The notes under the pieces: generated by a model
Databases searched by the model: none
Told to the model about the DNA's origin: nothing
What the model saw: the letters and a program-made list of their open reading frames with translations, nothing else
Assembly: GCA_963969395.1 (NCBI GenBank)
Contig: OZ017796.1
Span: 34,586,243 to 34,650,242, forward strand
Reading direction: 5' to 3'
Length of the DNA stretch: 64,000 nt
DNA from: Pseudoscleropodium purum
Lineage: Eukaryota > Streptophyta > Bryopsida > Hypnales > Brachytheciaceae
Position numbers and translations under genes: made by a program
Shown: positions 33,779-64,000 of the stretch, piece by piece
How the letters are laid out: each line of letters starts with the position of its first letter
How positions within the stretch are numbered: the stretch's first letter is position 1

Positions 33779-34589
33779 AATTATGATGAGGTTTGTTTCA
33801 CTTGACAAAGTACTATTTTAGAGTCCATCATTGTGGTCTTCTTGACTTCTACAAGAATGAAGATGTTCAATCCATGGATCAACCGTGCAATGTATTCTGG
33901 CTATTTATTCAAAATTTCTATTCATGTGAATTGTAGCCATAAAAACGATGTCTTCCAAATTTGTATCCAACTGATGGAATGAAGGTAGTAAGGTGCAGTT
34001 TGTACTCCAATTGAAAATTCTCAAAATTTCTTGAATCTCAATATCATATAGCAATATGAACTTTGGACTTATATCTAGGCTTAGTTTATTTTTCAATTTT
34101 AGAGCAACATGCTATCTTTTGTTTATACTAAAATCTTCCACATTATAATATAAAACCATGATGAAATTTTAATATTTATTAAGGATATTATATATTAGAT
34201 TTGAAATATATAATTATTTCACAAGAAATTCATAATAATTTGAAATTTTCTAGCAAAAAATTTGAAAATTGAAGAACATGTAACAAACATATGACTTCAT
34301 CTCAGAATATTAAACTAAAATTCTTCCACTTCCATTAGTTTCAAATTGGAAGAAAATAGAGTTATGATTGTTCAAGCTTTTTAGCCACGTCCTTCTAGCA
34401 ATGAATAGGTTTAGGGTGTAAAGTCCTTACAAATTAGGCTGCACATAGATTTCCAACTTTGCACTATTACAATTCTTTAAGAAAAATAGATAATATGTGA
34501 CTCTTAACACTATTTTAAACCAATGCAAATTCTAATATTCTTGTATTGGATTAATTTTCCTCAAAATCTTTTTTGAAGGTGATTGCACT

Positions 34590-35142
34590 AATTTTCTAGA
34601 CGATACTAATTCTCCCTCTCTGTTACGAAAAATAGTGTAGTTCTCTCTCGAATCCCTAAAACTGAAACCACTGCTGTTTGCTTTCTTTCTTAGTCTTGTT
34701 TGCTTTTTCTCTTCCTTCCTTCTGTTTTTTCTAAAGTTTTTCGGGAACTGGTGCATCACTGACTGCACATGCCTTGAATCCGTGATTCGAGGTTTCACTG
34801 GCAAAGATGAGCAATCACGAGAGTACTTCAGTCGCAAAGGAGTTTGACAAAGGAATAGTTGCTTATCACTCTATTGCGAGAGTGTGGGGTGTGCACTTGC
34901 ACCTCACCTGCTCCAAGAAGTGCCAAAGTGAGTGTTAGGAAAGCTCATTCATAGTTACAGTTAACTCGAAGATGGCCGGAGGACGTTACAGATTACGCAT
35001 TCACAGTGGTGAAGCGCCCGCTTGGATTGATGCCCTCTCTCACCCAGCTAGTTCATTGACACATCCAGCGCCTTGGATTATGGAAAACTTCTCAGAGATT
35101 ATAGCCTTGCTTGCATGCATCGTCAGGGATGAAGTTCCTCCG
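34590..35142 (+). pseudogene. Captured gene-like 5' segment (copy 1)
   Basis: The stretch is richer in G+C than the rest of the element. It contains an ATG at 34972 in a good context (GAAGATGG) starting MAGGRYRLRIHSGEAPAWID and open for 56 codons, ending at CCTCC|GTAAGA, which looks like a splice donor. I do not recognise the protein. A leader plus first exon ending at a donor site is what a gene fragment captured by a MULE (Pack-MULE) would look like; this is inference. The homology to copy 2 ends within one base of this donor. Confidence 0.4.
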
Positions 35143-42000: not shown

Positions 42001-43388
42001 CTAAATTAAGTGCAAAACCTCCGAATTAGGTATTGTAATCAATGCTTAATGAAGCATAAAAAGGATGCAAATTATGCTAAATTGAATGTAGAATAGCTAC
42101 TTTAATGATGTCCATGGACAATAAATAGATGATTGAAGCAATAGATGAATGTATAGGGGTTCCAAGACCTAAATGAACAAAGATGAAAATCCAACTTCCA
42201 ACTACAACAATAAGCATTGCAAAGCATGTTGCAATTGACTCCTATTAAGTCAATTGATTCCTTAGTAATATGAATTAACTAATTCACTTTTTTTTTGGGG
42301 GGGGGGGCAAGGTGTGTAGTACAATAAACTATCTATTAAAAAAATAAACAATCATCTAAAATTAATTGGATTGTTCCCTATGAGTAACTATCCACTCAAA
42401 AGACACCATCACTAGGTATAAAGTTAGAATGGTACATATAATATATCTAGAAAGTGAGCACATTAGCACATGAGCATAAGATGAAGCTTTGCTATAATAT
42501 TTAAGTTTAGTACTTTTAAGGCATCACCCCAATTTTGGAGGATACAAGTAGAAACATTGAATAAAGAGTGTGCCTCTATTATTGCTATTAAGTACAACAA
42601 AACATAATTATTATTGGGTGGTTCCAAAAAACACTCATGCTTTTTAGAGGGCACATGTTGTGTATCAATCATGTCATCTTCTATAACATTTAAAGTATGG
42701 GGACAATGGATATGAAATTAAAAGTGAAGATGGATAGATCTTTTTTTGTCATAGGAATTTTTTTGAAGATTTTAAGAAAATCATTTCATAATTAAAAACC
42801 AATTTTGCTAATTTGTCACAATTTTAGTTTTCATGATTTGAAATGCTTTTGAATAATCATAATTATCAGCATAGACTCAAAGAGGCGAGCTTCCAAGAAT
42901 ATATTCATATTATAGGCATGTACTTGTATACAATGCAAAAAAAACTAAAAATAGAAATTTTTGAATCCTCTACATCTAAAGTAGAACTACCCATTACCAC
43001 ATAGATTTGCAATCTCGATATTTTGGAAAAGTTATTTATGAGCTTTTATATTTTCAAAGATTGAATGGTTTGAGAAAAGTGAATTGCAAAAAGAATGAAG
43101 ACATTCTAACAAGAATTGAATTTTTTGAAATTTTTCAAAGCTGAAATGTAAAATTGTAAGTAGACCTTTCTTGAAGCATAGGTTGCAGGTTTTTTTTTTG
43201 GCATGGAGCAATACACCATGTAGGAAATGGGGGACATTCCCTCCAAATTTAATCCATTGTGTCTCTGCCACGATAGTGTAGTCTAGCGACAAATCGCTAG
43301 AAAAAAAACCCCTAGTAGATTGATTTGTTAGCTCCCCAATGCATTGCCATTATGATAATGGATTAGTAAGATTGTGGTAATAGATGTC
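39036..43388. other. AT-rich intergenic DNA
   Basis: No gene is supported. Notable only are a degenerate ATACATATA/ATACGGATAT simple-sequence patch at about 41560-41735 and a poly-G run near 42296. This separates the CACTA/foldback cluster from duplicated block 2. Confidence 0.55.
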
Positions 43389-44494
43389 GTGGACTAGTGA
43401 CGGAAATGGGAAAAACTTGTAGGTGGTAGAATTGGATAAATGGCAGTATTGGGTAGTTCCACCTTCTGTAAAAAAGCTCTCTTGTGTGCAACTTTTAGAT
43501 CATTCCAACTTTCTTTTTAATTAAATTTTATACCCTCATACTTGCCGTCGGTGCGGCTTGTTTTTGTTGTCGACCTGAAGATATTTTGTCGCCCCAGACG
43601 TCAGACTTTGTCTTCAGATCGGTAAACGAGAGACCCCAATTGGTTCAAATCTTGAGTAACTGCCGGCTTTACACTCCTTTTTTTACTTGTATTTGGTTGA
43701 CGGTGTAAAATCCTTGTGAATCGATTTCGTGTTGGGAATGCGGCCTTCAGTGATTCTCCTGAAATTCGGGGTCAGGGCACTCTAAGTCGCTTCCCCTGCA
43801 CCATACCGACCGGGCCAATCCCCGGTCGCTTTGTCTCTTACTGTGTTTACAGTGCCTCGTCTTTTGCCCCGGTAACTTAGTGATTCACGATTGATGAGCC
43901 AGAAGAGGAGGTAATATAGAATTGTCAGAATTCGATTCCACCGGCACAACTAGAGTAAGCAACCCATTTTGGATCACCCCCATTTCCACCATGTAGGCTG
44001 CTCTATTTCCAATCAGTTGTGGTGTACATTACAACTCACAAAGAGTAGGACCAACAGGAGCTACAGAAATGTCCAAGAAGTGTACATTGAAAGCATGCGA
44101 AGGAGGGTATTCCCCTCCAACCGGACGTACAGATATTTGCACCCTTCCCAACTTAGAGCATCCTCAGCCAAGCTACTCTTATGGCTAGTTGCTTTGTACT
44201 TTATCATTTGCAATGAAATCCCGTTTCATTCGTTTAAAAAATAATTGCATTTCATTTCTTTAAAAATAAATTAAAAAAATTAAAAAAATTAAAAAATTCA
44301 CAGTTAAATTGGCAGTTAAATTCAAAAACGTTTCAAGTTGGAGTCAACTTTGTCCTTCTCCGACTCCATGATTCTTGGACATCACATTTTCCCAAGTATT
44401 CTCATTTCTCATTTATGATAGGCAAGGCCGTACTGGATCGCCCGAAGTCCCGCAGCAGGCCGGACGAGACGGATGCAGCTTGAAAACCAAGTTA

Positions 44495-45056
44495 AGGTAA
44501 ACTTGCCTATGAGAAGCAGAATGACTGATCTATTCTATTTGCCATATTCTATTTGCCATTAACAAGAAAAATCAGATTTTTTTCCATACAAAGACAAATG
44601 TGAGAAATGAAGGAAGCAACTAGAATTTTATTTTTTTGACAAAATATGAATATTTTTATGAATTTTTGAAGTTTGTTGTCTAGTTAGCCCAAAAAAGTCT
44701 ATAGACTACCCAAAATTAGTAGAGAAGTGTTTCCATGATGGTCATCTTACCATCCAAAGCAGTCATAACATTCTTTAACATGGTTACAAGATTTCCTAAT
44801 ATGGACATGAGTTAAAGAAATAAAAATAATAACCTTTTACTAACAATTTACACTAGAAAGGTGCTAGTGTTTTATCACAATTAGTAATAACTCCGTAACC
44901 ATATCCCAAGGCTTTGATGACAACTACAAATCAACCTAATGCAATCATAATTCCATTTTTAAGAAAAAGTTTCTCATGGGTTGATAGAAGATTGTAATAG
45001 AAGAGTTCCCTAGGTGTTTGTCATGGATGATTTGCCTATCATAGGTAGGTTTACCT
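44495..45056. mobile_element. TA-target MITE, copy C (562 bp)
   Basis: The duplicate of copy B with the same inverted ends and TA flanks. It was carried here by the segmental duplication and is not an independent insertion. Confidence 0.75.
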
Positions 45057-47165
45057 TATTGGCTTTTCTTCCCATGCCGCTTGCAGCTAGGGTTGTTTAT
45101 TGTACTTCTTGTAGTAAAAGGTCTCTTTTTATTTGTGTCAAAAAAATAAAAAAATAAAAAAAGTTATTATTGCTTCTATTTTTGTACAATTCTTGTAGAA
45201 TAGAATATTCGGGCCAATTTTATGAGATTTTTTTTCAATGGGTTGTATTGATAGTAAGTTCATTTTGTAAAAACTCAAGAATTGTTTTCAATTGAGTGAA
45301 AAAGAACATCATGAAGTATTTTGTTCATCATTCAAAATTCATAGATATTGAAAAAAAAAAGGTGACTTCCATCTCAAAAAGACAAGTGCCATTAATTAAG
45401 TGTTGTTGAAAATGGTTTATGGACTTACTACATGGTAAATGGTGAATTCCATCCTTGATGTGTTCATTAGGAGGTAGACCTTGTAAAGAAGAAATTCTGA
45501 AATATGACGACAAGGTCATTTTGAAGTCAACCATAATTGGGTTTATTACAACAACAAGAAATGATACTTAGGTCAAAACAACATGCCTAAATTGACATGA
45601 CAAATCACATACAATGAAGGTAATTACAAGTAGCCCCAATTGGTAGAATAAATCACTCCATGTCACTAATTTTCTACCAATTACTAATTCTATGCAAAGT
45701 TTTGGATCTCATACCCTCTTTTTAGGGCAACCATACACTATGTTGGAGAAGTGCATTAGTTGGTTAAGAAGTTTTGGCCAAGACATGTTTATTTGAGGCA
45801 ACAAGTGGAATGTTGGAGAAAATGAAAAGACAATAAAATAATGCCAAAAGAAGTCTTGAATAGTTGTAGTATTCTAGACAACTTCACAATTTGAAGTCCA
45901 TTTGACAACTTCACTTGAAAGAAGAAGAGTCTAAAAGCTAGCCAATATTGTTTGAAATAGAGAAAGCCTTCAATTGCATAGCTAAGATATGCCATGATAA
46001 ATGAAATTGGAATTTTCTAAAGGCCAAGTTTCTTATTGGAGGTGAAGCCACCCAAGAAAATTGACCTCTAAAGAAATCCCCTTACAAAAAGTGTTGCCAC
46101 ACCAAATGAATCTTGGTTGTGGTGTAAACCCAATTTAGTAAAGAACAAAACTCTGCCAATTATATTGCTTTATTTTCCTATAATTCTTGATTAGTGTATT
46201 TTCTCCACCACAATGTAAAGCAACCATTAATGGGTTTGCATTACTTAAGTAGGAACACCTAAAAGATCCAAAACGCCCAAACTGTCACTTTTTTAATGTG
46301 GACCATGGCTATTATTAAATTGGTGAAATTCTTACATTTTTCTATTGGCAAGTGAATTTTCTATGCACCAAAGCATCATTTGGATATCATATGCCAAAGT
46401 TATGAAGGGTCAAAGTTTTTTTGGTTTCTTCAAAGCTATAGGACCATATTGATTTAGGAGATGTATATAGCATGAGCATCTCATCAAGTAGCATTTTGAG
46501 ATACATGGTACATTTGAGTGTCCCTATCTTAGCACTAGAAGCAACGACGCTAGCGTGCGAGCATGGAGCGGCGAGCATGAATCTTATGAGCATGCATTTT
46601 TATTTTAGAAATTCAATTTTTTTGGGGTGAATTTTTATTTTTGTTTAATACAAATTTTATATTTATAGATTTTTTACTATTTATAGTTAAAAGGGGCCTA
46701 TAACCGCCTTACCTATGACCGTTTAAAAAAAAATAAATTGCAATATCCACTGCATTTTTTGAAGTGTTAGCTCAAACTAGGGTTATATTATACCCACTGG
46801 AATTAATTGAAACCTTGTGGGTTTCAAACTCGACCCACCATGTTTAAATCTCTTTGACCTCTGGCTACAATATTCCTATTTAATGAAGTGCAATCAAGAT
46901 AAAGAAAATCAACTTCAATGAATACATGGCATATTTCTAATAAAATTGACAAATAAATCTTGAACTTACAAATATAAACATAGTGACTATTTTCATTGAA
47001 TTCATTCCAATGGAATTTGAACTACAAGTGGAAAGAAGAGTTTAGACAAAATGATCACTTTTTGTGAGAAAATGAAATTTTTTTCAATTAATTGAAAATA
47101 TATTCAATCGTATAAAATGGATTCATTTCACAAGCCATTGAAGTACTTACAGATAGCGTCTTCTA

Positions 47166-50100
47166 TTACTCTAATACTGTGATAATTCCCGCTTTTACCA
47201 AAACAAGCTTCAACTCGTTGAAACTATAGCTTGGTGCATGGATAAACTTGTCTTCGTTTATGTCCATTTTGCAGAAGTACCGGAAGAGGTAGTACAAATG
47301 CTTGCAATTTACATACTGTTGCCGACCTCCAATGGCTGAAACCGCCATAGAAGTAAAGTCAGGGCACGTACATGATGGGTACATACCCACAGTGATTCGA
47401 TAAATGTTGAGATTTGGTTCAGCCCTAGTTTGTAGTGAAACAATTGCTCCTAAACCAGGAAATGGTAACAATGTCACTCCCAATATCTCTCCTTTAATGT
47501 TTCCAGCACTCTCCCACTTGTTGCGTTGTTCAATTGTAGGTGCATTTGCAATTCGGTGTATGGTACGGCTATTTCGTACAGTTGGATATACATGTGCGTC
47601 TACTGGATTTGATTCATCATATAGCACACTCTTGAATACATTAGACATACCAAATAGCCGTCGTGGAGACAATATAGGACGCTCTTGAAGTCGAAATCCA
47701 GCATGCTGCAACAATAGGGTCTCCTCTTGGGTAAGATTTGTTCCTGCTAAGATAGGCCATACTTCGGGAACCTCCGGCCACTCTATAACCCACTTGCGTT
47801 TACTTCCTTTGACGCACCGTTCGATGTCATCTGCACAAAACCAAAAGTTTGCCACTACCTCTTTCTTACTTCCGTAATCTATTTTTCTTCCACTATAGGT
47901 TGGAGCGGGAGTTCCCTTGCGACCTTTGGCAATCTTCCCCTTGCATGTCATGTTTGAACCTTTCTGTTGAGCATAACATTTTGCATTTGACTTGTGGCTA
48001 ATCCTTGCAATGTGCCATTTTGATGTATCACAGTCACTTTCAAATGCAACCGTGACATGTGGCGGAGTGTTCACTAGAGGTTTAGGACCTTTATGTCCTG
48101 AAGATTCCATTGACGTTGTTGTGGCACGTGTTCGAACACGAGGTTGGGAAAAGTTGATTTTATCAGGTCTATGTGAGTCACATGCATCATCGATAGGAAT
48201 GTCTAACTTCCTCTTCAAGCTCCCAAAAATCTCTTCTCCTTCGAGATGAGGAATGTGAGTTCCAATACCTTCGGAACCTGGCAATGAATTCAATGCCTCT
48301 GCAATCTTCTTTGGATCACCGCTACGTCTTGCTGCTCTCAATTTCAACTCCCCTTTTGATGGACCAGATCCCAAAGCATATCCCTTCAAGTAAGCTCGAT
48401 AATTTGTCATTTGCATCCATGCCCAAATATTGTCATCACATGTTGCATCAAAGACATTGTTCCCTCTATTACCAGACATTTGAAGCCACTTGTTGTGTAC
48501 GGTTTCTGACAAATTGCATGAAGGCATATCGGCAAGTTCCTCCAAACTTAAATCCTGAAAATGAAGTTGCACAAACATTAGACTTTGCTAATTCAATGTT
48601 TTATACCATCATGAAATCCATCTGAGATATAAATAAACATTTATAAATACATGAATCAAAAGTGAGAGTAGTAAGAAGATCTCAATAATATCCGTGTTTG
48701 GTCAAACGGGATTTTGCAAGATCTTTTCCAGTAAAGTGACTTTTTGAAGCTTAAAATATAAAATGAAAACTTTCAACAAACCCAAACAAAAATTCAAATT
48801 CAAATAACCACTATTCAATATATATTTTATATAGCCTACAAATAAACCTTTTATTTCAAAAGTAGGGATTCTGGGTTTGCACAACAACCTTCAAATTTAC
48901 TTATTATTTATTTCTTAATTTTTTAATTAAATGTTCTTTGAACATGAACCAAAAGTAGAGGTATTGAGGGGGACCCTACATACCCTTGTCGGATCCGACA
49001 GGGGTATAGAAGGTCCCTACCCCTACCCCTACTTTTGGTTCATGGACTGTTTCTTTCCCAATTTTTTGGACGAAAAAATGCTAAAAAAAAATTGGAGATA
49101 TTGAAGTAAACCATGAACCTTATATTCATAATTCCTATCTCATGAGTGTATTTGTAGTCCTTCCTAAAATTCCAATTTCTCATCAATTTGGGACATTCCT
49201 ATGTTTTTTAAAACAAAGATTTAGGAAATTCCATGCATTCAAATCAAATCATAGAAATATTAATTTCAATAGAAAATTGCTTTGAATGCACCAAAAAAAT
49301 TTTAAAACAGATTTGAAAATTTTTATACTCCAATCAAATTGACTTACCAATTGCATGAATCCTCCCCATTGCCTATATCGGAAATGCCAAAAGGCAAGCC
49401 AATGTTCTAAGTGGTGAAGTGCATCTTCTGTTGTTGCTCCCGATGATAACCACCAAGACCGAATTGCCAGGTATTTTGTTTCTGCTTCCTCCATTGATTT
49501 TGCATCTTTGTACTGTTTACAAAGTAAATTGTGTTGTTGCTGAAACGCTTCCTTAATGTACTTCTGCGTGTGCTTCTGGAGAGAAGCACTCCAATGCAAT
49601 AAGCATGTTCTTTCCCTATTCTCCATTTTCTGATCTGCAAAACCACTTCCATATACAATTCGTACGGCATTCCAATTCGCCATAGCGCTATCAGCCATAA
49701 ATCCTTTAAAATTTGGATTTTCAACTCCATGTCGCAACATTACAGTATTCAAGCACTTCCAAAAGAGCAACTGAACCTCAGTATCTTCTGATTGCATATC
49801 ACAGGTTGCAATCGTCATGACCTTCTTGTAATCTGGATCATACACGTGGCAAGCCATTGTCGTCCATTCCTTTACACGCTTGACGTGGTCGAACATCATC
49901 CACGCATTTTGAAGATTTCCTCCGGATTGCATGCGCTGCACCAGGTCCACACCGCTTCCAGGTCCTTCTGTGAGCATCTTGAAGATAAATACCTTCTCTT
50001 TTCCTTGGCCTGGAAAGACACTGTCGTGGATGAATTCGAACTTCGACTCTTTCTTCATAGTCATTATGTTGTCGATGATGCCTCCACGGTTGTTTGAGCG

Positions 50101-51507
50101 AAATGACGATATCACATTTCTAATGTTGGGACTACTCAAGTATTGAAACCGATCCATCACCTCTTCTAGCTCTTCTCCCTTCAACATCACTTTCTCTCCC
50201 TCTCCGTTATGGAACAAATAGGTCGTGAGAAAATCTTTGCTTGCAGAGAGAGCAATGGTTGAGTTTGTGGCAGTAGGAGTTTTTGCCACTTGCTCTGCAA
50301 TGAGTTCACAAATCTTCTCTGCAGAATCTCTATACATGCCTTTTGCTACTGGGTGAGAGTGATCTCCAAGATGAATTGCGGCCCTTGTCATTTTAGGAAT
50401 CTCGCTATAACAGTAGTATATTCTAGCGTCGTATTGCTTTAGACATGTTGGATTCTGTCTACATAGTTTGCAAACTAACGTACAATCCTTGGGAGGCTTG
50501 TCTCCTATTAGAAAAGGGGACACTGTATATCCACTCCACTCCGTCTCATTGTGCTTATTAACTCTCTTTAGATATTCACAATCGAGATTCATACAAACAA
50601 GGTGACCAGTGCAATAGGACTTCCGGAATCTCAATCTGTCGGAGTTGTGAATATTGGTAGTTTGTACCTTGCACCACGCATGTCCATCATAACGTTTGTC
50701 CATCCCCTCCAAATTTCCGGCAGCCGACGAAGATGGCCACGTGCGGCATGGAGGCAACTCAAAGATGACGTTTCCATTGAAGACTGATGGAAGAAACCCA
50801 ACTTCATGGTGCTTGATGGCATTTACATCCATTGTGGACAATTCGTTCCTAGACCGATGCATACTCTTCAAATTCCTCAAGCATTCCATTATGCTCCTCC
50901 GATCAAGTGTAGGTGGATACAACGGAGGACGAGATAACAGAGATTGTATAGGACTATTGCCTTGGATGTCTGAAACTGAATGATTACTATCACGACTACC
51001 AAGAGCGTTTTTGACACATTGCGGTTTTTTACGGACACTCAAGTTAGGTGACTGTCCTTCCGAATCACTTGACAACTCGATAATAGGGTCCAATTTCTCA
51101 ATCTTTACAGCACGTAGAAAAGTACTTGAACTAGGAATTGGAAGTTCCTGTCGAAGAGGGCTAGGAGAAACTACGTTTGTGACATATGGCATATCCACTA
51201 TTGAATTATCGGACTGGCGGCTAACCATCTCTGTAGATGCATTTAGAATAGCCATAGGAAGACCGTATGCTCTATAGTTTCCTATAGGGAGGAACCAACA
51301 AACTCCATCCTTGTCTTCACTCTTCTCAATAGGAACAAATTCTATGCTTTTACCACATTCAGACTTCCTCTCTTCTTCTATATAGATAGAGGACTCATCA
51401 AATCTGAAACGTACATGTAGAAGATGATTGGATACTCTAGCCAGATTGCCATTCGCCAAAGGAAACACAAGCGGAACTACATGACCGTCTACTCTAATGC
51501 AAGCCAT
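47166..51507 (-). CDS. MULE-family transposase with SWIM zinc finger, copy 2
   Basis: Exon 1 is 51507-49348 and exon 2 is 48554-47166, with the same structure and about 1182 aa as copy 1. All recognised motifs are intact: the N-terminal zinc-binding cysteines and HSH, the two core aspartates, LLHW, and the SWIM CTC...CKH. Differences from copy 1 include Pro to Ala in LLHWSASLQKH, Arg to His in GIGTHIP and Lys to Glu in SFNELK. This is the transposase of the complete element, so if expressed it could act on that element's ends and on the single left end left in copy 1. Confidence 0.88.
48943..49044. repeat. 102-bp foldback element, copy in block 2
   Basis: The duplicate of the hairpin at 30089-30190, with the same arms and the same TGTCGGATCCGACA core, again within the transposase intron. 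Confidence 0.8.
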
Positions 51508-52314
51508 GGTGATAAAGCAACACTGCAAAACAACGGAATGAAAAGCCAAGGATACATCAACTTCAACTATAGAAGACAGAAGCATGTGAAGTATGTCAAT
51601 ATAGTCCACAGAAATTATGTAGTTTCAATTCAACCTATGGTATTCTAGAAGTATCCATTCATAAGAGAACTTTGATAGTATATGTACAAACTATTTACAC
51701 AAAGATGTCATTTAGTTCCTTCATTACTGCTTTCATGTGAGTTACAAGAAATAAATGAGTTGAGAGAAATAAATGAGTTCAAGCGGCTTTGGCAAGAGAT
51801 TGATTTAAAGTAAACAAAAATCAATGAGTCAAGGCGACTTTGGCAAGAGCTTCATTTCAAGAAAATGAAATTTATGTATTGAGGCGGCTCTGAAAAACGC
51901 GTTCAAGAAGATACTCATTAAATCTTGCCAGTTTTATACTCCAGAGTGAAGATAGACAATGAAAGGGGTGTCAGAATAAAAGACGGCTCATAAAATCTTA
52001 GGACAACTATTTAGAATTTGAAATTTGCAAGGCGGCGCTTCTCATAGGTCTATCTATTGAGGCACTCGGGAAGGACTAACCTACTTGGTTGTTTTGAATA
52101 AATAGTCTCCATGTTTCTTCATTCATGTCTTTCCAATACTACCTTCAACATAGTTCTGTACTTCTCATAGTGTGAGACTTCTAAAGTTTATATATTGATC
52201 CTTATGCTTGTAGACTGTGAGAGCTTTGCAGACATAGTTCCAGACCTTAGAAACAAACGGAAGAGACATATTTCATTGTATTTCTCATCACGCAAGGCAC
52301 TTAGAAGATCTAGA

Positions 52315-52650
52315 ATGACTCGCTCAAAAAAACTTGTGTCAAAGATAGGTCAGTCGTCACAGATACAACTCCGAAAACACCTTCTCTTTGAAAGTGGAGA
52401 TAGTGGCGTAGAAGTCGACCCAGAAGTACAAGAGTTGCAGTCACAGGAGACGTCGGCTGAAGACATGACAAGCAACCAAGACATCTCAAGACACAATAGC
52501 CTCTTACAAGTAAGAATTTGCATAATCAATTCTTATTCTTTGTATACTTTTCAGTGTGTTGGATTTGAATCTACCCAAAAAATATACAACTTACAGTACG
52601 AGTCTCATGCTTTATCAAAGTTCAAGTATTTCATTGAGACTTTGATTTGA
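52315..52650 (+). CDS. Small rightward ORF, probable first exon of the ParB/methylase gene (copy 2)
   Basis: Identical in protein sequence to 33443-33778, with a donor at 52510. In this complete copy a phase-0 splice to the acceptor TTTGCAG at 56913 would join ...NSLLQ to MDSTDMNKEQAFF. The intron would then span the captured fragments and AT-rich DNA. This is inference from phase, strand and position. Confidence 0.45.
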   Translation: MTRSKKLVSKIGQSSQIQLRKHLLFESGDSGVEVDPEVQELQSQETSAEDMTSNQDISRHNSLLQVRICIINSYSLYTFQCVGFESTQKIYNLQYESHALSKFKYFIETLI

Positions 52651-53843
52651 AATTATGATGAAGTTTGTTTCACTTGACAAAGTACTATTTTAGAGTCCAT
52701 CATTGTGGTCTTCTTGACTTCTACAAGAATGAAGATGTTCAATCCATGGATCAACCGTGCAATGTATTCTGGCTATTTATTCAAAATTTCTATTCATGTG
52801 AATTGTAGCCATAAAAACGATGTCTTCCAAATTTGTATCCAAGTGATGGAATGAAGGTAGTAAGGTGCAATTTGTACTCCAATTGAAAATTCTCAAAATT
52901 TCTTGAATCTCAATATCATATAGCAATATGAACTTTGGACTTATATCTAGGCTTAGTTTATTTTTCAATTTTAGAGCAACATGCTATCTTTTGTTTATAC
53001 TAAAATCTTCCACATTATAATATAAAACCATGATGAAATTTTAATATTTATTAAGGATATTATATATTAGATTTGAAATATATAATTATTTCACAAGAAA
53101 TTCATAATAATTTGAAATTTTCTAGCAAAAAATTTGAAAATTGAAGAACATGTAACAAACATATGACTTCATCTCAGAATATTAAACTAAAATTCTTCCA
53201 CTTCCATTAGTTTCAAATTGGAAGAAAATAGAGTTATGATTGTTCAAGCTTTTTAGCCACGTCCTTCTAGCAATGAATAGGTTTAGGGTGTAAAGTCCTT
53301 ACAAATTAGGCTGCACATAGATTTCCAACTTTGCACTATTACAATTCTTTAAGAAAAATAGATAATATGTGACTCTTAACACTATTTTAAACCAATGCAA
53401 ATTCTAATATTCTTGTATTGGATTAATTTTCCTCAAAATCTTTTTTGAAGGTGATTGCACTAATTTTCTAGACGATACTAATTCTCCCTCTCTGTTACGA
53501 AAAATAGTGTAGTTCTCTCTCGAATCCCTAAAACTGAAACCACTGCTGTTTGCTTTCTTTCTTAGTCTTGTTTGCTTTTTCTCTTCCTTCCTTCTGTTTT
53601 TTCTAAAGTTTTTCGGGAACTGGTGCATCACTGACTGCACATGCCTTGAATCCGTGATTCGAGGTTTCACTGGCAAAGATGAGCAATCACGAGAGTACTT
53701 CAATCACAAAGGATTTTGACAAAGGAATAGTTGCTTATTACTCTATTGCGAGAGTGTGGGGTGTGCACTTGCACCTCACCTGCTGCAAGAAGTGCCAAAG
53801 TGAGTGTTAGGAAAGCTCATTCATAGTTACAGTTAACTCGAAG

Positions 53844-54149
53844 ATGGCCGGAGGACGTTACAGATTACGCATTCACAGTGGTGAAGCGCCCGCTTGGATT
53901 GATGCCCTCTCTCACCCAGCTAGTTCATTGACACATCCAACGCCTTGGATTATGGAAAACTTCTCAGAGATTATAGCCTTGCTTGCATGCATCGTCAAGG
54001 ATGAAGTTCCTCCGCAGGCTAAATCGGGAAGCTCCGCCACTGAATCAGGAAGCTCCGCCACAAAAGCTAGAGCTCCGCCACTAAAGCTGGAAGCTCCGCC
54101 ACGATGCTTCCTGCGTCACGTTGCAACTTTACCTAACATAATTGATTAA
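53844..54149 (+). pseudogene. Captured gene-like segment with GAAGCTCCGCCAC repeats
   Basis: The frame begins MAGGRYRLRIHSGEAPAWID as in copy 1. Past the homology break at 54014 it runs into about four GAAGCTCCGCCAC-type units (54029-54105), giving a low-complexity SGSSAT/APP tail. I do not recognise the protein. The unrelated tail suggests a join of two fragments rather than a natural gene. Confidence 0.35.
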
Positions 54150-54384
54150 AGCAAGCTCCCCGCACTGAAAGTTGTGTCCCACTGGTTTAGCTACCAAAAT
54201 TCGAAATCTTTTAAAAATCTTCTCCCGCGCCATTGGAATCACTCATCGGGAAGAGTGAACGCCTGCTCAAAGCATGAGTTCTCCGAATTGCTCTACTGAC
54301 TGTGAGCGACGGGATTCTTAATCACCATTGCTTCCCTGTTTTCATACTCCCAAGCAATTGTCTTGCGAAATCTAATCTTCTGTG

Positions 54385-54582
54385 ATGGCGACCTGGCAGC
54401 GCTCAAGGACGGAGCAACAAGGACGGAGCACAAGAAGTCGCTCGCGTGAAGACGAGGTTGTGGATGCTCGGAACCAGTTCAATCAACACGTGAATCTGCA
54501 TGTGAGGTTTCGAATGCACTTGCTTGGTCAGTCAGCTTCATGTCTTGGGGCTCGTAATTTGCTCAAACCTGTCATCAACTAG
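54385..54582 (+). CDS. Short ORF in GC-rich segment, unknown
   Basis: The ATG in TGTGATGGCG opens an arginine/serine/glutamine-rich frame (MATWQRSRTEQQGRSTRSRS) of 65 codons. A CCCGCGCC-type GC patch precedes it near 54225. It may be the first exon of another captured gene: a possible donor (TGTGAG|GTTTCG) lies near 54506. No family was recognised and support is weak. Confidence 0.25.
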   Translation: MATWQRSRTEQQGRSTRSRSREDEVVDARNQFNQHVNLHVRFRMHLLGQSASCLGARNLLKPVIN

Positions 54583-55217
54583 AAAGCTCCTCGTGAACTG
54601 AAACCCCAAGTACGTCGAGCTTCCTGCAAGGCCTTCGTCGGAACCGACAGGGGTCCTTCGGGGAGCTCAGGGCACCCCTTGTTTTGGACCTCCGAGACGT
54701 CCTGGTCCTCGTGAGTTGTTGCGGTGTTGCTGCGACTTGGCTTCTGAGTTGCTGCAACGTGGCTTCGGAGTTGCTCCAGCGTGGCTTTGGCGTTTAGCCA
54801 AGTACTTTTGAAATTAATTTCGGGAGCCATCAACATCCTACCCCGAGTACGTCGAGCTTCTTGCAAGGCCTTCGTCGGAACCGACAGGGGTCCTTCGGGG
54901 AGCTCAGGGCACCCCTTGTTTTGGACCTCCGAGACGTCCTGGTCCTCGTGAGTTGCTGCGGTGTTGCTGCGACTTGGCTTCTGAGTTGCTGCAGCATGGC
55001 TTCGGAGTTGCTCTAGCGTGGCTTTGGCGTTTAGCCAAGTACTTTTGAAATTAATTTCGGGAGCCATCGACATCCTACGTACTCCGTGCCTCAGACCCCA
55101 GTTTCTAGTGACCTCGAATTTTTGAGATTGAGGGATGTCAGATGGTGGATGAGTCGGTTGAAATTTTAGATTTGATCGTTTAGAATTTCTGATACTCGCA
55201 TGCGAGGAGCTTCTCAT
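54579..55217 (-). CDS. Minus-strand ORF with two 79-residue tandem repeats
   Basis: A 212-aa frame on the minus strand contains two nearly identical 79-residue units (237 bp apart), each starting MAPEINFKSTWLNAKATLEQ and ending in PLSVPTKALQEARRT. Conservation of frame through both units and the GC-rich composition argue for coding origin. The end of each unit resembles short linker peptides near the end of plant retrotransposon gag proteins, but I cannot assign it. The start at 55217 follows no clear signal. It may be a relic of a retroelement or a captured gene inside the MULE. Confidence 0.4.
   Translation of the reverse strand: MRSSSHASIRNSKRSNLKFQPTHPPSDIPQSQKFEVTRNWGLRHGVRRMSMAPEINFKSTWLNAKATLEQLRSHAAATQKPSRSNTAATHEDQDVSEVQNKGCPELPEGPLSVPTKALQEARRTRGRMLMAPEINFKSTWLNAKATLEQLRSHVAATQKPSRSNTATTHEDQDVSEVQNKGCPELPEGPLSVPTKALQEARRTWGFSSRGAF
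54600..55079. repeat. 237-bp tandem duplication, two units
   Basis: The block beginning GTACGTCGAGCTTC(C/T)TGCAAGG starts at 54610 and again at 54847, an exact 237-bp period, and the units extend to about 55079 with few differences. The period is a multiple of three, so the minus-strand frame survives. Each unit contains GTCGGAACCGACAGGGGT, one base from the core of the foldback family. Confidence 0.85.
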
Positions 55218-55219
55218 TC

Positions 55220-56913
55220 TGCCTAAACCAGACCCTGTCCATGAAACTTGCTCTCACACAATTCAACTTTACTTTTTTTTATAGTCTTTGATCTCTTTTG
55301 AGGATCCAAAGCATTGTTTTTTATTCTTTCATTTGAACATGAGTTACTGTAGCCAAGACAAAGTAGGTGACTTGGCGTTTCTGAAGAAGTGCATTCAAGT
55401 TTCTGGATTCTGATTTTTGGAAAATCAATATTGTCTTGGAGCGATTTGAGTCCAATTTGATGATGTTTCCATCTCAGAGAGCTATTAATTTGGTTATTTT
55501 TCTAGACTCAATGTACGTTGATGGATGCTATGTAAAGCAAGCTGTTAGATGAGAGTTGGTCACAAGTTTAACTGAAGTAATCTTGGCTCAGTATGAAATT
55601 TGACATAACCCTCATGGTTTTTGAAGCATAGTATACATGACGTGTTCTCTCCCGTTAATATGAAAGCGAAAAGAACGATTAAAGGAATGTTTAGTGAAAG
55701 CTTAGTTTGATCCAATTCACTTTTAGTTTGTGGAAGAGGACATATGTTTACCATCTAGACACACAGCAATGTGTACCTTGCCAGTAAATTTTTGGTCATG
55801 AATGATGCTTTGAACGAACCCAAATCTAAAGCATCATTTAATCTTCCTTCACATGTTCATGAAAATGTTTTACTAAGATGAGTGTAGCAAATTAGTCAAC
55901 AGTATTTGACAATTTGGGAGCATGAATTTCTCATTGTATTGCTAACAACGCTTCACCTCAATTCATTTTGCAATGGCCTTTGAAATGCTTATCATTAGAG
56001 AACAAGGTGTTTCTAGTAGTCATTGTGTTCCCATGCTACCTTACCAATTCATAAGTTTAGAAGAAAGAGTAACAATTACCTCTCTAGTGACTCATATAGG
56101 GGGTACCTTGAGATTCCTCTTAGACCCCTGTCGGATCCGACATGGCACCTAATGGAATCTCAAGAGACCCCAAGAATATGTCACTTTAGGGGGACTTCAT
56201 GGTTCCTATTTATAATGTTTTGTTTTTTGACTTGAAATGGTGAATATTTGAAGGCCATTTTCTATTTCTAGGTCACTTGGGATGGAATTTGTAAAATTGT
56301 GCCTTAAATAAATAGTTTCATTGAAAATGTCTTGAATATGTAAGGAATGGGACGTTATGAAAGAGAGACTTTTTTTTTGGGTCTCAATACTTTCAATAAT
56401 CAAAGCTTGAATAAGATACAGAAATTCTATTGTTGAATCAATATATGTATGCAATACAATTATTTATGTGATATTCTAGTCATTCATTTTCACATCATAG
56501 TTGGAAAGTCTTCTTTATATTCGTGTAGTCAAAATCTTGGAATTTACTGTTTTAGATTGTTTAGAGAAAGTAAATGAAACTATATAATTCTTACATAGTT
56601 TAATTCATATATTCATCTCAATTTATTCCAATTCATCTCAACTTATTTACAATTGATACTTTTTGGATTTAGGAAGTGTAATCATTGAAGAGTTTCACCT
56701 AGATTAGGAACCCCTATTTAATTCTCAAATGATTTTGATGTCCAAAAAAATAGGAAAATATGTTACATGGGCAATGCTTGTCATTTCCACTGGTAGTTGT
56801 TCTTACATATGTTATTCATACCCAACCTTACAAGACAAATGGACTTTAATCAAATCCAAATAGTTTTATCATGTCAAATTCTATTATTCTAATAGTGGTC
56901 ATTGCCTTTGCAG
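55220..56913. other. AT-rich non-coding stretch within the MULE
   Basis: No gene is supported. It contains one foldback element (56104-56166) and ends at a splice-acceptor-like tract (TTGCCTTTGCAG) before the first exon of the ParB/methylase gene. I interpret it as intron or leader. Confidence 0.45.
56104..56166. repeat. Foldback element with TGTCGGATCCGACA core
   Basis: The arms CCTTGAGATTCC and GGAATCTCAAG pair perfectly and enclose CCCCTGTCGGATCCGACATGG. The arm sequence differs from the other family members while the palindromic centre is the same. Confidence 0.65.
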
Positions 56914-57804
56914 ATGGACTCCACAGATATGAACAAGGAACAAGCATTTTTTTCTGGTCCACAAACTAAAGTTGTGGATCAAGAAATTGAGGATGATCGA
57001 GTTCCTCAGACTCCTGGGCTTCTTCCTGTTATCGAATCCGTGACTTAGAACAGGATGAAGATGTTGATGTGGTAAGCTTTTATGATACCATGGATGCTTG
57101 TGATCGTGCTGCAGATGAGTATGAGAAAGACAAGGGAAGTCGTATTAGTTTCCCAAAGCCAAGAGATCCTAGAGTGCCAGTATTCTCAGATGAGAGCTCT
57201 GATACAGAGTGTAGTGATCCCAGCTCATTGAGCTCTACTGTAGATTCATCCCCATCTGTATGTAGTCCGTGGGGTCCTATACATTGTGATTGCTTAGGAC
57301 TTCACCAGTTAAGGTACAATCCAGTGGTCATCATTCACCAATGTTCCAACTATCATGAGGATGTGGACATTGAGTGAAAAATGTAATTAAGAGGATATAT
57401 AAAACCAGTTGGTTTTAATTTGTGCATATATGGTATTGCTTCGTTTTTCAGTTATCTACAAACATATTTGATATATACTATAAAATCCATTGGAAATAAA
57501 TAATTTCATGGTATTCATAAATTGCATTCACATATACCTAGCACTTTTATGTACTCTAATTTTGTATAATAGTGTTTTTAGAATTCTTTAATGAGTACAT
57601 TTTTTGAGATCTTCATGATGTAAATTCTAATAATACTGATTGTATGTCTCATTATTTTTGTGTGCATTTTCTTTGCAGGGACAAGATTCACCACTCATTT
57701 TGTCAGAAAATGTCCAACACCAAGTCACACCCGCAACGGATGACACACAATAGCCAGAGATAGAAGGAGAAGAAGAGGCGGAAGAAATACAGGAAGAGAT
57801 AGAG

Positions 57805-60800
57805 ATGGAGGAAGATAAAGAACTTCTTGAAGATGAGCTCCGCCGATTTCACAAGGTGGATTCTGTGGCCACAATAACTTCACTAAGGTTGAAGCCAGAG
57901 AATCTATCACGTTTCAAGATTCCACTTTGCAGGCTAGTGCCGATGCCAATGGTGAGGCCTACTCTTTCCTCCGATTTACAGAAACTTGAGCAGGACTTTG
58001 CACATGGCTACCGAGATGGAGCAACATCGTTTTATGTGTCAACAACCAATGAGGTCGGCGAGAGTGCAGAATTCACTGGGGAAGAGGTTGCAAGATGGGG
58101 CCCTTTTTGGCAACAAAGGAATAAAGAATTTGTTGCATTTCTAGAAACAAAGCCAGAGTTGCATTTCATGAAGAACATGAAGTTTTTCATATGTGATGGC
58201 AATCACCGACAAATTGCTTGGATGAGCCATATTCGAAGAAAGTACCCTTTGGACATTAATTGGCACATCTCAGTTGACTGCATTGTGCTAGAAACAAAAG
58301 GAAGAGTGGAGATGACAATGCAGGTGATGCATGAAATTAACAAGTAAGTACTTCATCTTTCAATTTGGATTGATTTCAAAATTCATATCTCACATTATTC
58401 TAAATTGTTTAGGATGGAAAGTAGCATATGATTGTATAAATTCTAAAGTTGAATTTCATGTTTCAGGTCCACTGAAGATTCACATGTGAAGACAAACTTG
58501 GTACACACGTTGTACCGTGTGCAAAAATATGGAAGAATGGAGTTGAAGAAGATCTTAGAGATGCTTAGGCCCTCTGAAAGGAAGCAGTGCGTATTTCAAG
58601 TGGGTAGAAAGGCGTGGTATTCGATGCCTATGGATGTTTTCACATCATTCAATTTTAGGGTGAGTTTTATTTTGCCTACTAAATTGTATTTTTAGAAAGG
58701 AAAAAGAAAAGAGTTAACTAGATTTTTAGTTCTATGGCTTACAAATTTCTTATGATGAATTCCATTTGCAACATGAAATCTCTCAAGCTGCAGACACCGC
58801 TGCTCGGCGTTACATTGATGTGACACCGGCAGAGGAAAGAACTGACCGCGGAGTTGCAGACGCTATGAGATTTGCAGCAAAAGAAAAAACCTCAAAGTTA
58901 CGTATGAAGATGGGAAAGTTGTTGGCAGTTGCAGATCCGGCCCTTAGATCAGAGTTCCTTGAAGATGTATATTTAGAAATTTAAGTGAATTTTTTATTTT
59001 ATTTTGATGTTTGGTAAAAAAGATATATATTGAACAATCTACTATCATGTTGCAGGTGGAGAAACATTGGGTTTGGAATGAGGTGCCGGAAATGACTTTG
59101 GAAAAGCTCCAGATGATTGCAACAAGTACCATGTCAACAGCTCACAAGATGAAAGTGCTGAGGTGGTGGAATTCTTCTAATATTTCAAAGGAGTCATTGA
59201 AGTTTCCACCGTCCCCTGTTTCAGAAGATAGACTCTCGGCTTTTTTGCATAAAGTTGTTTGGTGGGCCGGGGTAAGATCATTCATTATATAAAATGTTTA
59301 CTTACAATATTCAATAATTTGGAATGCATATTCTTTATTGTATTTAAATTGATCTCCTTTTTTGATTAATTGAAAGTTGCATTTTTGGGATGAGAAAGTT
59401 AATTGCCATGTCAAATACAGCTTGAAGATGGTGCACAGCAATATTTTGACAACGTAGTGGCAAAAGACAAGCCTGACAATCCTGACATCAACATGGACGT
59501 GCCCCTTCAGCCGGAAACTCTATCGGAGTACGTTGAGGGGTGGAGGAAGAAAATATGGGATAATGCATTTGGTCCAGTTTTAAAGGGACCAAACTACTTT
59601 AAGAAGCACAAATCATTTTTAAGTCGCGAGGGATCTGACCAAGCTGTTCGAAGGGTTCTATTTAGGTGAGTGCTTTCAATTTGAATGAAATGCTAAAAAT
59701 GAGAAGTTCATTAGAATTCGTTGTTTCTTTAAATTAGCTTTTAAAAGTAAAATAAAATTAAAATATCTCTTGGAAAATCAAAAGTGGGAGTATTGGAAGG
59801 GAGCCCCAATACTCCTGTCGGATCCAATAGGGGTGCTACGATTCCCTGGGCCTACCCCTGTTTTTGGTATTGCGAGGGAAATTAACATTTCTTTTCTATT
59901 TTTCCTAAATGAAATTGTAAATGGGAAAAATGATTTAGATCAATTTTTTCTTGGTTCCTTATTGCAAGATATGTAATTTTTTTTAAATTTTGGAAATAAA
60001 TAAATAAAGAGACAATATTGACAGAGTGAACCAAAAGTTGGAGTATTGGGAAGGACCTTCAATACCCTTGTCCGACCCAACAGGGGTATGGACGCTATCT
60101 CCTAGTACTCCAACTTTCGGTTAAATATTGTTCAATGTAATTTTTAGAGTACTTCATGACATGTATTTTTTGAGTTCTAAGTACATTTATAAATGTTGAA
60201 GTTGATTGAAGACAAGACAAAATATTTTGTGATTCATGTATGTTTCTCTTAAGGCGTTGACTTAGAATTGTCTTCACATTGTAGGTACTTCAAGCTTGAG
60301 CTTGTTCCAAAGGGTGCTATATTACGAGGCTCTCTACCTCCTTTCCTTTCATCTTGGTTGGATCGGAGTTCAAAAGACTGCATGTTTACACCCACTCAGC
60401 TCCGAATGTTTACTACAGCTAATTTGACCGGTGGCAGGTGGTACTTGGAGTGCCCAGTGGACTACACCCACTTCTCAGAGGTTGCATTTCGTAAATCATT
60501 TGATGGCCTAGGTGTGATTGATGTAGAGGTGCCCGAGTTTGCAGACCTTCCCGATGCCCAAAAGAGGAAAGCTATTGCACGAAGAACAATTGCAGACGAA
60601 AAGAAGAAGAAAAAGGAGGAAGAAATGAAGGCTAACAAAGAAAAGAGGGAAGCAAAGCTAATAGCAAAGTTGGCTGAGAAGGAGAAGGAGGCAGAGAAGG
60701 AAAGGAAAGATAAAGAGAAAGGGAAGAAGAAACTGGAGGGTGGAAATCAAGTGCGAGGGTCTTCTACAGTGGACCAAGAATCACAGATAGAGTCTGGATC

Positions 60801-60894
60801 ACGTAGCGGTGTGAAGAGGAAGGCTGTCTTACAGGAGCTCACTGAGGAGATGGTTACACAAGGCACCCAAGTGATTGTCATAGAAGATGACTAG
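57805..60894 (+). CDS. Intact ParB-like domain protein within the degraded gene
   Basis: From the ATG at 57805 (MEEDKELLEDELRRF) the frame stays open through six exons (57805-58342, 58469-58659, 58730-58966, 59056-59271, 59421-59665, 60285-60894) to a stop after VIVIEDD, about 680 aa. The DGNHR motif at about residues 132-136 is the signature of the ParB N-terminal/sulfiredoxin fold (nucleotide or phosphate binding, in ParB CTP-dependent DNA clamping). The tail from about residue 575 is a charged coiled coil of Lys/Glu. It may be a stand-alone product or the front half of a ParB-methylase fusion whose stop at 60892 arose secondarily; reading continues sensibly past the stop, which favours a former fusion. 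Confidence 0.55.
59777..59868. repeat. Diverged foldback-family element
   Basis: It resembles the hairpin at 60028 in layout (AAAAGTGGGAGTATTGG...CTCCTGTCGGATCCAATAGGGGT...CCCCTGTTTTTGGT), but the arms pair imperfectly. It lies in the intron between exons ending 59665 and starting 60285. Confidence 0.5.
60028..60123. repeat. 96-bp foldback element in ParB gene intron
   Basis: The arms GAACCAAAAGTTGGAGTA and TACTCCAACTTTCGGTT pair over 17 bases with one G-T-like mismatch. The core is CCCTTGTCCGACCCAACAGGGGTATGG. Relative to 30089, the arm has changed on both sides (GTAG/CTAC versus GTTGGAGTA/TACTCCAAC), so pairing is kept despite sequence change. Confidence 0.7.
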
Positions 60895-62909
60895 AAGGTG
60901 AACACGGAGGAGTTGATCCTAAACAATTCCATTGTTGATGTGATGAAAAATGAAGGCAAGGGCAAGGATCATGCTATGAAGAAGTGATGGAGTTCTTAAT
61001 GAAGGTGTGTTTTTTGTTTTTGAAATTTTGCCATTCCAGAATTTGAACGTATTGCATGCATTCATTATTTTTATAATATGAAATCACTTATAGATCTTCT
61101 GTGTGTAGTTGTCTGATGGTAAGAGTCGCATGTTCAATGGCGAAATGAGCAAGAAGGCTGGAGTGGATCTCATTTTGTTTGACCTTCAATAAAACCTCCC
61201 TGTTCCAGAAGTGTCCATTCCAGCAAACCATGTGCCGCACTGGAACTTTGACAAGGAGTTTAAGGAGATTGAGTAGGCAATTGTGTTTGCAACAAAGCAT
61301 TTGCAAGACAATGGTTGTTTTGTCATTTTTCATTCTTGGAGTGCAAAGGCAAGGGGCGTGGTAGTGGGTTTGACCTAGATGTATCCATTTTTGAAGTTTA
61401 AAGAGTGGTTGGGAATCAATTGCATGCACTTGACTTCGGGCGTGAATCCAGCAAATATGGTATGAATGTGTTCCGATTGTATCGTTGTTTAATTATTTTG
61501 GTATATTGATTATATTATTTTTATTGATGATTTTCTGAATTAAATGTATGCAGACAATGAAGTTTGGAATCACGTTGCTAGTGAAGAAGCTTGACAAGAG
61601 ACGCAAGTCACAGTTCAAGTTCAGGTTGACTGAAGCAATGAAGAAGGCCAAAGTAGATCTTGAACGTGACGATACATTGATCAACTACACCACCATTGAC
61701 AACATGATGATGAACGGAAGTGTACCATGGCGTGGTCCTCGTGAGAAAGACGCAAGGCTTTTTCAATTCATAATTGAAGGAACAACTAGCGAAGGAGACA
61801 TTGTTCTTGATAACACTGGAGCAACTGGTAAGATTAATTTCAACTAATATTATTTTCATTTATTATAATCCTAGCTCTACGTTTTATTAATGAATTGCGT
61901 GTGTTTACTGTTAGGTGCATCAATTACAGCATGTCGGGGTATAGGTCGCCATGTTGTGGCTTTGGAGAAAGATGATGCCATTTTCAACGCAATGTTGCTG
62001 CCTATGAGGAAGACAATTGAACAAGAAGAGACAGTAGAAGAAGAAGAGGAGGAAGAAGAAGACACTACTCAAGATCCTGATGCAATGGAAGTGGAGGTCT
62101 TTAGTTTTGCTTGGAAGAAAAACACTAGTAAGTAAGTTTCCAGAGGTTTATGTTCAATGTGAATATTTTGTTTCTAGTGTTTATGATTTAAACAAATTTG
62201 AATTTGTTTTTGCAGACCCCATGGAGTGATGTTCTTAAATACAACATTGCGCAAAAGAAGACTAATTTTGAGTCCAGAAAAGTCTTTTGATTTGCCAGTG
62301 TATGCAAAGCAATTGGCATCGGCATTTGTAGAGTTTGGTTGCTCAGAACCAAAGAAGCGGCGAGACACTTATGCTTTAAATGTGTTAGAGTATTTAGATG
62401 TTAGCACTGTGGAAGATAGAGAGACTTCTGAGTCTTCTGCAAACAATGATTCTGCAACCGAATCTACTATGACCTAAACTCATAAGTTAGACATATCTTA
62501 TAAGTTACAATTTTTTGTATTGATTTTTTTTATGAGTGGATTTGTGTGTTTTATGGCTACATTTATTGTGCACACTGTTACTTCTAAAAATTTTTTTGGA
62601 GTAAAATATCAATGAACATTCATTACCAACAAATGCAATTATACAATAATTTAGCGCCATAGAATTTCAACAATGAATTTCTAAACCTTGATCCCCACCA
62701 CTTGTATGTAACAATTCATGTACAATTGTTTTGGGTTTTCCTCTTTAAATTTACAATAGTTTTTTTTATCACAACCCTAAAATATTTTGTCTTTAAAATT
62801 ATTAAAATGAACAATCCTAAGATCCACGGTTATAGGGCCTTCACATCAAATTTCAGTAAAAAAAGTTCCCGCTCTCAGGCTCACACGCTAGCAACCCTGG
62901 CACTAGAAG

Positions 62910-64000
62910 GATGGGCCAATGACTATTGATTTCAAGCCTCGGTGTCCATCACTTTATTTTCTACCAGTATGCAACTAGACATGAATGAATTAAATCATAT
63001 TTATTCTTCAAAAGTGAAATCATATGTTTATTATAAGTTATAAGATTTTCAAGTTTGGGAGGAAAATTTTGAAACTTTTGCAAATTATTTAAGAAAAAAA
63101 TGAAGAAATTTTTTATCAAACACATACTCATATACTCCAAAACCTGAAATTTTCACCATTGATGTATATTATAGTGTATAACATTATAGTATAAACCAAA
63201 ATTATCAAGTCCATCTAAATTTAGAAAATCAACAAATGGCTATGGTTATAGGTCTAAAATTCATATTACTATAAAATATATATTGAAATCTAAGATTTCT
63301 TCAGAATTTCCAATTGGAGTAGAAACTATATTTGATAAGCTTAAATTCCTTAGGTGGACTTAAATTCAAAAAATATCATTTTTATGGCTAAAATTCACAT
63401 TAAGAATAAATAGCAAAAAATGTACAAAATACAACACAAAGGTGATTTGTAGATTAGGGTTGTTGCAAGAAATACTCACCATTTTGGGCTCAAAACAATA
63501 TATTTTAGTGTGTACTGTGACTTTTGGAATGTTTTTTTAGAATTGAAATAAAATATGGATAATTTCATTAATTTGTAAAGCATTGAAAATAGTATGTCTT
63601 TGAAAAATTCAGACTTAGAAAAAATTATCTCCAAAAATTAAGTATAATACAAAGTCTATGCACCCTTCTTCATTGAAGGCTTTCTCATGGTTCCAAAAAT
63701 GTGATCAAGGGAAGCATGGTCAAATAGGAGATCTCACTATAACAAAAAAAAAATTTGAACAAAAAAAAACAACTTTAAATTAGTTTATGCACCAAAACAA
63801 CTTTATATATGGTTTCATCAATATCTTTAAATTAGGTTGTTTATTTTGTTTTATTTGATATGTTGAAATCTAAAAATTGTGAAGTATCTAGCAGCATTCT
63901 TAGTACTACTCCAAAGTTCTTTGCTTAGAAGGGTGCATGGACTCTATTTTGTGGCATTTTAACTTATGGTGCAAAAGTTATTGAGTTTTAAAGTTTGGAT
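62910..64000. other. AT-rich DNA beyond the MULE
   Basis: This lies outside the element, after the right target duplication. No gene, repeat end or RNA gene is recognised; it consists of A/T-rich sequence with many short homopolymer runs. Confidence 0.5.

Follow-up and report, generated by a model that had tools for sequence, protein, structure and literature searches.

The 64,000-nucleotide stretch of Pseudoscleropodium purum DNA analysed here (assembly GCA_963969395.1, contig OZ017796.1, positions 34,586,243 to 34,650,242; hereafter the window) contains one 16.4-kb DNA transposon, at positions 46542-62899. It almost certainly belongs to a two-gene, cut-and-paste family of Mutator-like elements (MULEs; IS256/MULE class), of which the window holds a full-length, partly decayed copy. 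Its two genes are divergently oriented, one for a predicted transposase and the other for a protein that appears to combine a ParB/sulfiredoxin (Srx)-fold domain with a methylase-like one. Taken as a whole, the best explanation, to which we assign a probability of about 0.6, is a two-gene MULE whose second protein, probably a non-methylating one, would help by binding the DNA of the element.

Perfect 10-bp target-site duplications, GCACTAGAAG, flank the element at 46532-46541 and 62900-62909, each an exact repeat of the other. Directly inside them, a left terminal inverted repeat (CAACGACGCTAGCGTGCGAGCATGGAGCGG, 46542-46571, + strand) pairs with a right one ending in ...CACACGCTAGCAACCCTG (62869-62899, - strand), the first base of the former and the last base of the latter being the same in other copies. 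The terminal motif GCTAGCGTG(C/T)GAGC is found in opposite orientations at 46549 (+) and 62879 (-), so both the flanking repeat and the opposed motifs reported by a previous sequence-only reading of this DNA are as described. Farther inside, the subterminal motif GGCCTATAACCG (46695-46706, + strand) recurs in the window only in a duplicated left end (copy A, 27843) and, in inverted form, near the right end, as GGCCCTATAACCG (62827-62839, - strand). Written as GGCC(C)TATAACCG, this motif is restricted within the window to the vicinity of both element ends, in inverted orientation, and to the duplicated left end. The terminal repeats are short and imperfect (~24-31 bp), accompanied by an inverted subterminal motif, and the ends are alike in a distant copy of the element. 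Among 20000 pairs of 40-mers drawn at random from the window, 1 equalled or beat the pairing between the first 40 bases of both ends; when 400 bases of each end were compared, the same match was reached in 13 of 1000 shuffles. The significance of the repeats comes thus from the match sitting at the very ends and not from its strength over 400 bases. Chance as the origin of the terminal repeats was rejected in view of the exact 10-bp repeats, the inverted motif and the 1/20000 end pairing.

The genome (313 Mb in 52 contigs, window included) was searched with the ParB-exon protein, which detected at least 151 places (150 of 389 candidates scored), 14 of them, including the window, being 93-100% identical. 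From the 13 other near copies, six (C47, C49a, C49b, C46, C40b and C41) were sampled for their ends and some further parts. The left end coincides with window position 46542 in C47, C49a, C49b, C46 and C40b, each in other flanking DNA, and the right end with 62899 in C47, C46, C49a, C40b and C41 (at 25.6 Mb), again in other flanking DNA. Target duplications were GTCAAATGA for C47, CTGTAGAGAG for C46, AAGCTCAACA for C49a and GAAAAAAACC for C40b, all unlike that of the window. Hence ends and target duplications recur in four other copies, confirming the exact coordinates that had been proposed for the MULE-type element. In C40b and C41 additional subterminal repeats stand between the terminal bases and the main alignment (the ends of C40b were read separately), and in C46 the BLAST match extends 6 bases beyond the left end by chance. 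C49a and C49b are probably related by duplication, because their left flanks are almost identical. Eight elements were examined, namely that of the window, the six near copies and the distant copy, the truncated copy A being excluded; a perfect 9-10-bp duplication was present in all six with both ends in the fetched DNA, which contained a single end for the other two (C49b without the right one, C41 without the left one).

The distant copy lies at ~450 kb of contig C41, with a ParB exon 55% and transposase exons 47% and 53% identical to those of the window element. Both transposase exons are upstream and on the opposite strand, the remaining second-gene exons, including the methylase-like ones, are downstream and carry stops, and the ends (CAACAACGTTAGCGTGTGAGC on the left, ATTAGCAACCCTG on the right) are bordered by a perfect 10-bp duplication, ATCATATGTT. 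The transposase is also found beside ParB in five of the six near copies (the near-copy piece from C41 spanned 52.9-56.0 kb only). This copy search with its linkage check, finding the same ends around both genes at other loci, upholds the earlier claim that the two genes lie within one element. Furthermore, protein collections contain three transposase/ParB pairs on contigs of identical size (185737, 583271 and 9903 bases), their co-location on one contig being inferred from these equal sizes. The comparison covered 60 transposase matches and 119 of 297 ParB matches, and none of 20000 control sets with jittered ParB contig sizes (contigs of at least 5 kb) gave three or more matches. Judging from the copies compared, the pair formed by the transposase and the ParB/methylase-like gene is old, because both genes are still linked between matching ends in a copy diverged by ~50%. 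Retention of the pair in a copy of only ~50% identity also makes the second gene look like a working, constitutive part of the element rather than a chance passenger, and the term cargo, initially applied to it, is too weak. As a side observation, contigs L001 (4101 bases) and L002 (2681 bases) of the cyanobacterial metagenome-assembled genome AVDCRST_MAG81 carry this transposase and a ParB-like gene, and this assembly appears to be contaminated by plant DNA. L001 was retrieved with the transposase alignment from a collection of genome contigs, against which the ParB alignment gave nothing useful.

The transposase is read on the - strand from two exons. The 5' exon (49252-51624) is open over 791 codons (786 aa from the first start) and has 60 homologues, with identities of up to 83%; it shows a Cys/His-rich N-terminal region followed by an RNase-H-like core. 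The 3' exon (47169-48587), an open reading frame (ORF) of 470 aa from its first start codon and homologous to the 3' part of the related protein P0013, presents a SWIM-like CxC...CxH arrangement close to the C-terminus, with a weak match to Pfam SWIM (E 0.18); the same model matched one of 15 members of the transposase family, with E 6.8e-5. Both exons are open in the window and in copy A, and in no other copy read. A structural model of the relative P0061, built from 52 sequences (pLDDT 71.7), has chains of the ISCth4 transposase as its three best PDB matches (E 6.1e-5, 3.1e-4 and 4.4e-3; probability 0.99-1.00), the lower-ranked ones being unrelated; a PDB search by sequence returned no match for the transposase. 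We take ISCth4 to be an IS256-type transposase, and IS256 to be the bacterial kin of Mutator. The protein is thus predicted to be a DDE transposase of the IS256/Mutator-type fold, an identity that rests on the fold of the P0061 model and not on Pfam. On this ISCth4-type fold the transposase claim of the sequence-only reading stands.

The second gene is read on the + strand. Its ParB/sulfiredoxin-fold exon (57754-58344) contains a DGNHR motif, has 297 homologues and is directly preceded by a TAG at 57751-57753. The middle exons (58467-60891), with partly guessed borders at 58467-58659, 58790-58981, 59050-59271, 59418-59666 and 60283-60891, were delineated from exon translations and, over parts, from tblastn with the Ceratodon protein P0001, and are followed by a TAG at 60892. 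The methylase-like region comprises one exon holding the motif IV position (61109-61459) and further ones (61554-62477) that include the motif I region (DNTGATGASITACRGIGRHVVALEKD) as well as the C-terminal tail, identified by comparison with P0001 and with other copies. Full-length queries retrieved two matches only, both hypothetical proteins: P0001 of Ceratodon purpureus (M758_1G295400), 30% identical over 95% of the query and with the same domain order, and P0002 of Riccia sorocarpa (R1sor_003727), matching over 21% of the query. The P0001 model reaches confidence only at about residues 220-400 (pLDDT averaging 49 over its length) and leaves the helix-turn-helix region without resolved structure. 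Its best 37 PDB matches are all Noc, ParB, KorB, PadC or Srx entries, with probabilities of up to 1.00. The second gene is accordingly modelled as containing a ParB/sulfiredoxin-fold domain, an assignment that relies on the relatives and is weak for the window sequence, whose second-gene exons gave no ParB match in Pfam. A PDB search by sequence with the second gene gave one chance-level match, scans of viral contig collections found no relatives, and no ParA-like ATPase was detected among the 10 window ORFs scanned.

In the window this gene is broken, by the TAG at 57751-57753, that at 60892 and three stops within 61109-61459. Position 60892 encodes Q in all five other copies; altogether, the last four stops fall three times on a glutamine and once on a glutamate of other copies, as expected mostly from C-to-T decay. 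The Pfam model N6_N4_Mtase (PF01555) matches P0001 above its cut-off (4.9e-7) and the window exons below the curated one (4.3e-4), and was not found by the Pfam scan of P0002. The earlier description of a ParB plus methylase gene therefore holds for a ParB-type fold and a methylase-like domain in relatives, being weak for the window sequence itself. Canonical motif IV has the form (D/N/S)PP(Y/F/W), of which DPPY/F, NPPY and DPPW are quoted in PMC8885841. The corresponding position reads DLQE in the five other near copies read and DLQ* in the window; the distant copy has DMPE there, Ceratodon DTPF and Riccia DMPT. In C46 and C41 the frame stays open through the last five exons, so that this loss does not merely reflect decay of the window copy. 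As far as the translations indicate, the second gene has a methylase-like domain lacking the canonical catalytic motif IV in every copy and relative read, and its product probably lacks base-methylating activity. The base-modifying module of the sequence-only reading is consequently not sustained, motif IV being non-canonical wherever read and the window copy carrying stop codons. Activity as the default reading was rejected on these same motifs. In phage and plasmid records, tblastn with a second-gene relative found the methylase end only, the C-terminal region of P0001 being ~30% identical over ~140 aa to adenine methylases of phage and E. coli plasmid records.

The non-coding parts of the element contain a 14-bp palindrome, TGTCGGATCCGACA, placed at the tips of ~100-bp foldbacks, one in the transposase intron (48940-49050, palindrome at 48987-49000, DNA fold z = -8.3) and another 5' of the second gene (56085-56200, palindrome at 56129-56142, z = -4.5). 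The exact 14-mer has 28 sites in the genome, and its reversed control none. Of these, 26 are no farther than 12.2 kb from a near ParB copy, and each of the 14 such copies has at least one; the remaining two sites are in the truncated copy A and 18.6 kb from a copy. One recurrent site precedes the start of the ParB exon by ~1.6 kb, and a second, decayed in the window (59816), follows it by ~2.05 kb. Allowing up to 3 mismatches, the window has eight matches (seven in the element or copy A, one outside), with a shuffle mean of 1.11; allowing up to 2, a 200-kb sample of contig C40 has none. The exact palindrome is thus essentially confined to this element family. That it might be the exact core of a genome-wide miniature inverted-repeat transposable element was considered and rejected, both on the concentration of 26 of 28 sites near the 14 copies and on the empty 200-kb sample. 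We regard these non-coding palindromes as candidate sites for binding by the second protein.

A 10.6-kb direct duplication within the window (24504-35142 versus 43381-54014; 99.2% identical by BLAST, 44 substitutions) runs from 3.15 kb outside the left end, across that end and the complete transposase, into the middle of the element. It carries copy A, a truncated second copy of the left half (27690-35142, + strand), whose right end was looked for within the window and not found. Because the left half lies in this duplication, a third GCACTAGAAG occurs at 27680, both end motifs being repeated at 27680/27697. Transposases of the window element and copy A differ by 15 changes (non-synonymous divergence, dN, 0.0030; synonymous divergence, dS, 0.0075). 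The duplication could also be an assembly effect. Other repeats were observed as well. A 460-bp inverted repeat, 68% identical, links 62947-63403, just outside the right end, with 52793-53238, inside the element, and this inner copy is also present in all six near copies fetched. Between both genes, a 237-bp unit is duplicated in tandem (54603-55078, 97%), where the alignment of other copies is variable. Fragmentary exons at ~3100-12800 (+ strand) are presumably FANCD2-like.

As to how such an element would work, the transposase would recognise the short terminal and subterminal repeats and move the element; the footprint at the ends is observed, and the chemistry is predicted from the fold. 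The second protein would be a DNA-binding helper acting on the DNA of its own element, by analogy with VANC of the VANDAL MULEs either countering silencing or regulating transposition. We advance this helper role only tentatively, and an anti-silencing function is, on the same analogy, possible.

Several observations weigh against the reading as a whole. Most copies seen are decaying: the transposase carries stops in all five other near copies read (C47 1, C46 5, C49a 2, C40b 3, C49b 3), second-gene exon g does so in three of five (C47, C49a, C40b), and dN/dS over the last five exons of six near copies, with stops counted as changes, is 0.74, which shows mostly neutral drift since insertion and no constraint visible at near-copy depth. 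Structural matches are modest too, with TM-scores of 0.19-0.35 for ISCth4 (best match 0.21/0.35) and a best Foldseek E of 3.9e-3, none being at or below 0.001, for the ParB domain. Pfam MULE-domain models matched neither the window ORFs nor the 15 family members (E <= 10), which, given the predicted fold, we read as divergence, a Pfam match not being class-defining. Regarding the palindromes, the copies with TGTCGGATCCGACA share 93% or more identity in the ParB exon, so that the positions could follow from common descent alone; five other perfect 14-bp palindromes occur in the element; 59785-59860, around the site at 59816, folds no better than shuffles (z -1.35); and the 14-mer is absent from L001 and from the scanned piece of the distant copy, its 5' part (L040).

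Other roles of the second gene were weighed against the same evidence. A possible, if rather doubtful, one is that its product serves transposition itself, in excision, end pairing, target choice or segregation of copies, and not in anti-silencing. The palindromes inside the element would suit this function, ParB-type proteins being able to cluster and bridge DNA and mudrB of MuDR probably acting in transposition; no ParA-like ATPase appears in the 10 ORFs scanned. A more elaborate version of the helper, which we regard as unlikely, would be a ParB-type loading system taken over by the element: the protein would load at TGTCGGATCCGACA in a parS-like manner, spread along or cluster the element DNA, use its non-catalytic methylase domain as a reader, exclude host silencing and keep copies mobile. 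Capture of the second gene from host or bacterial sequence, to be carried passively as in Pack-MULEs and without a role in transposition, is quite unlikely. MULEs do tend to pick up fragments of host genes (PMC6446971), and the gene is disrupted both here and in several copies; however, the same divergent, linked layout is kept in near copies and in the copy diverged by ~50%, three pairs share contigs of equal size, and the ParB exon occurs at so many places of one genome.

It is also decidedly improbable that the second protein is, despite its unusual motif IV, a functional DNA methyltransferase that marks or protects the element DNA, a role suggested by the sequence-only reading. The methylase domain of P0001 gives matches, the motif I region is partly kept and in two copies no stop interrupts the last five exons, yet the DPPY-type motif is replaced by one of four other tetrads and motif I reads NTGATG. 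Finally, the duplication breakpoint at 54014, between the two genes, might suggest that segmental duplication ending inside the 16.4-kb unit had juxtaposed its halves by chance. This was rejected, and its probability is negligible, since independent copies at other loci have the same ends, both genes and their own, different duplications. Considering the above, a two-gene MULE with a DNA-binding, probably non-methylating second protein is the explanation we favour.

Few second genes are known from plant MULEs, and the majority are enigmatic. A literature search, beyond whose reach were most subscription journals, did not find this gene pair reported, and the element appears to be a MULE with an undescribed type of second gene. 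Bacteria and phages have proteins joining a ParB N-terminal domain with a DNA methylase, and the second gene resembles them in the ParB/Srx fold and in the methylase C-terminal identity already described. On the contrary, the bryophyte proteins are read without DPPY and with a long middle region, and the window gene has introns and lies in a eukaryotic transposon. Ceratodon P0001, which shares the domain order of the second gene, and Riccia P0002 are named merely as hypothetical proteins. Like MuDR of maize, with mudrA and mudrB, the element is built as a two-gene autonomous MULE; in MuDR, duplications are of 9 bp and, unlike the ~30-bp terminal repeats found here, terminal repeats span ~215 bp. 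If the reading is correct, a prokaryote-type DNA-binding domain would be serving a eukaryotic mobile element, and the defined ends, many copies and element-specific palindrome make the role of the second gene directly testable. The closest parallel is provided by the VANDAL MULEs of Arabidopsis, which encode a VANA transposase and the anti-silencing protein VANC with DUF1985/DUF287, illustrating that second genes of MULEs can be sequence-specific anti-silencing factors (PMC5735166). As in VANDAL elements, a transposase is accompanied here by a second, non-transposase protein, and motif sites lie in the non-coding parts of the element. Neither DUF1985 nor DUF287 was matched in the Pfam scans of the second gene and its relatives. 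In contrast to VANC, the second gene encodes a putative ParB/Srx plus methylase-like fusion, and this fusion, kept with the transposase across deep divergence, would represent a different solution from that of VANC.

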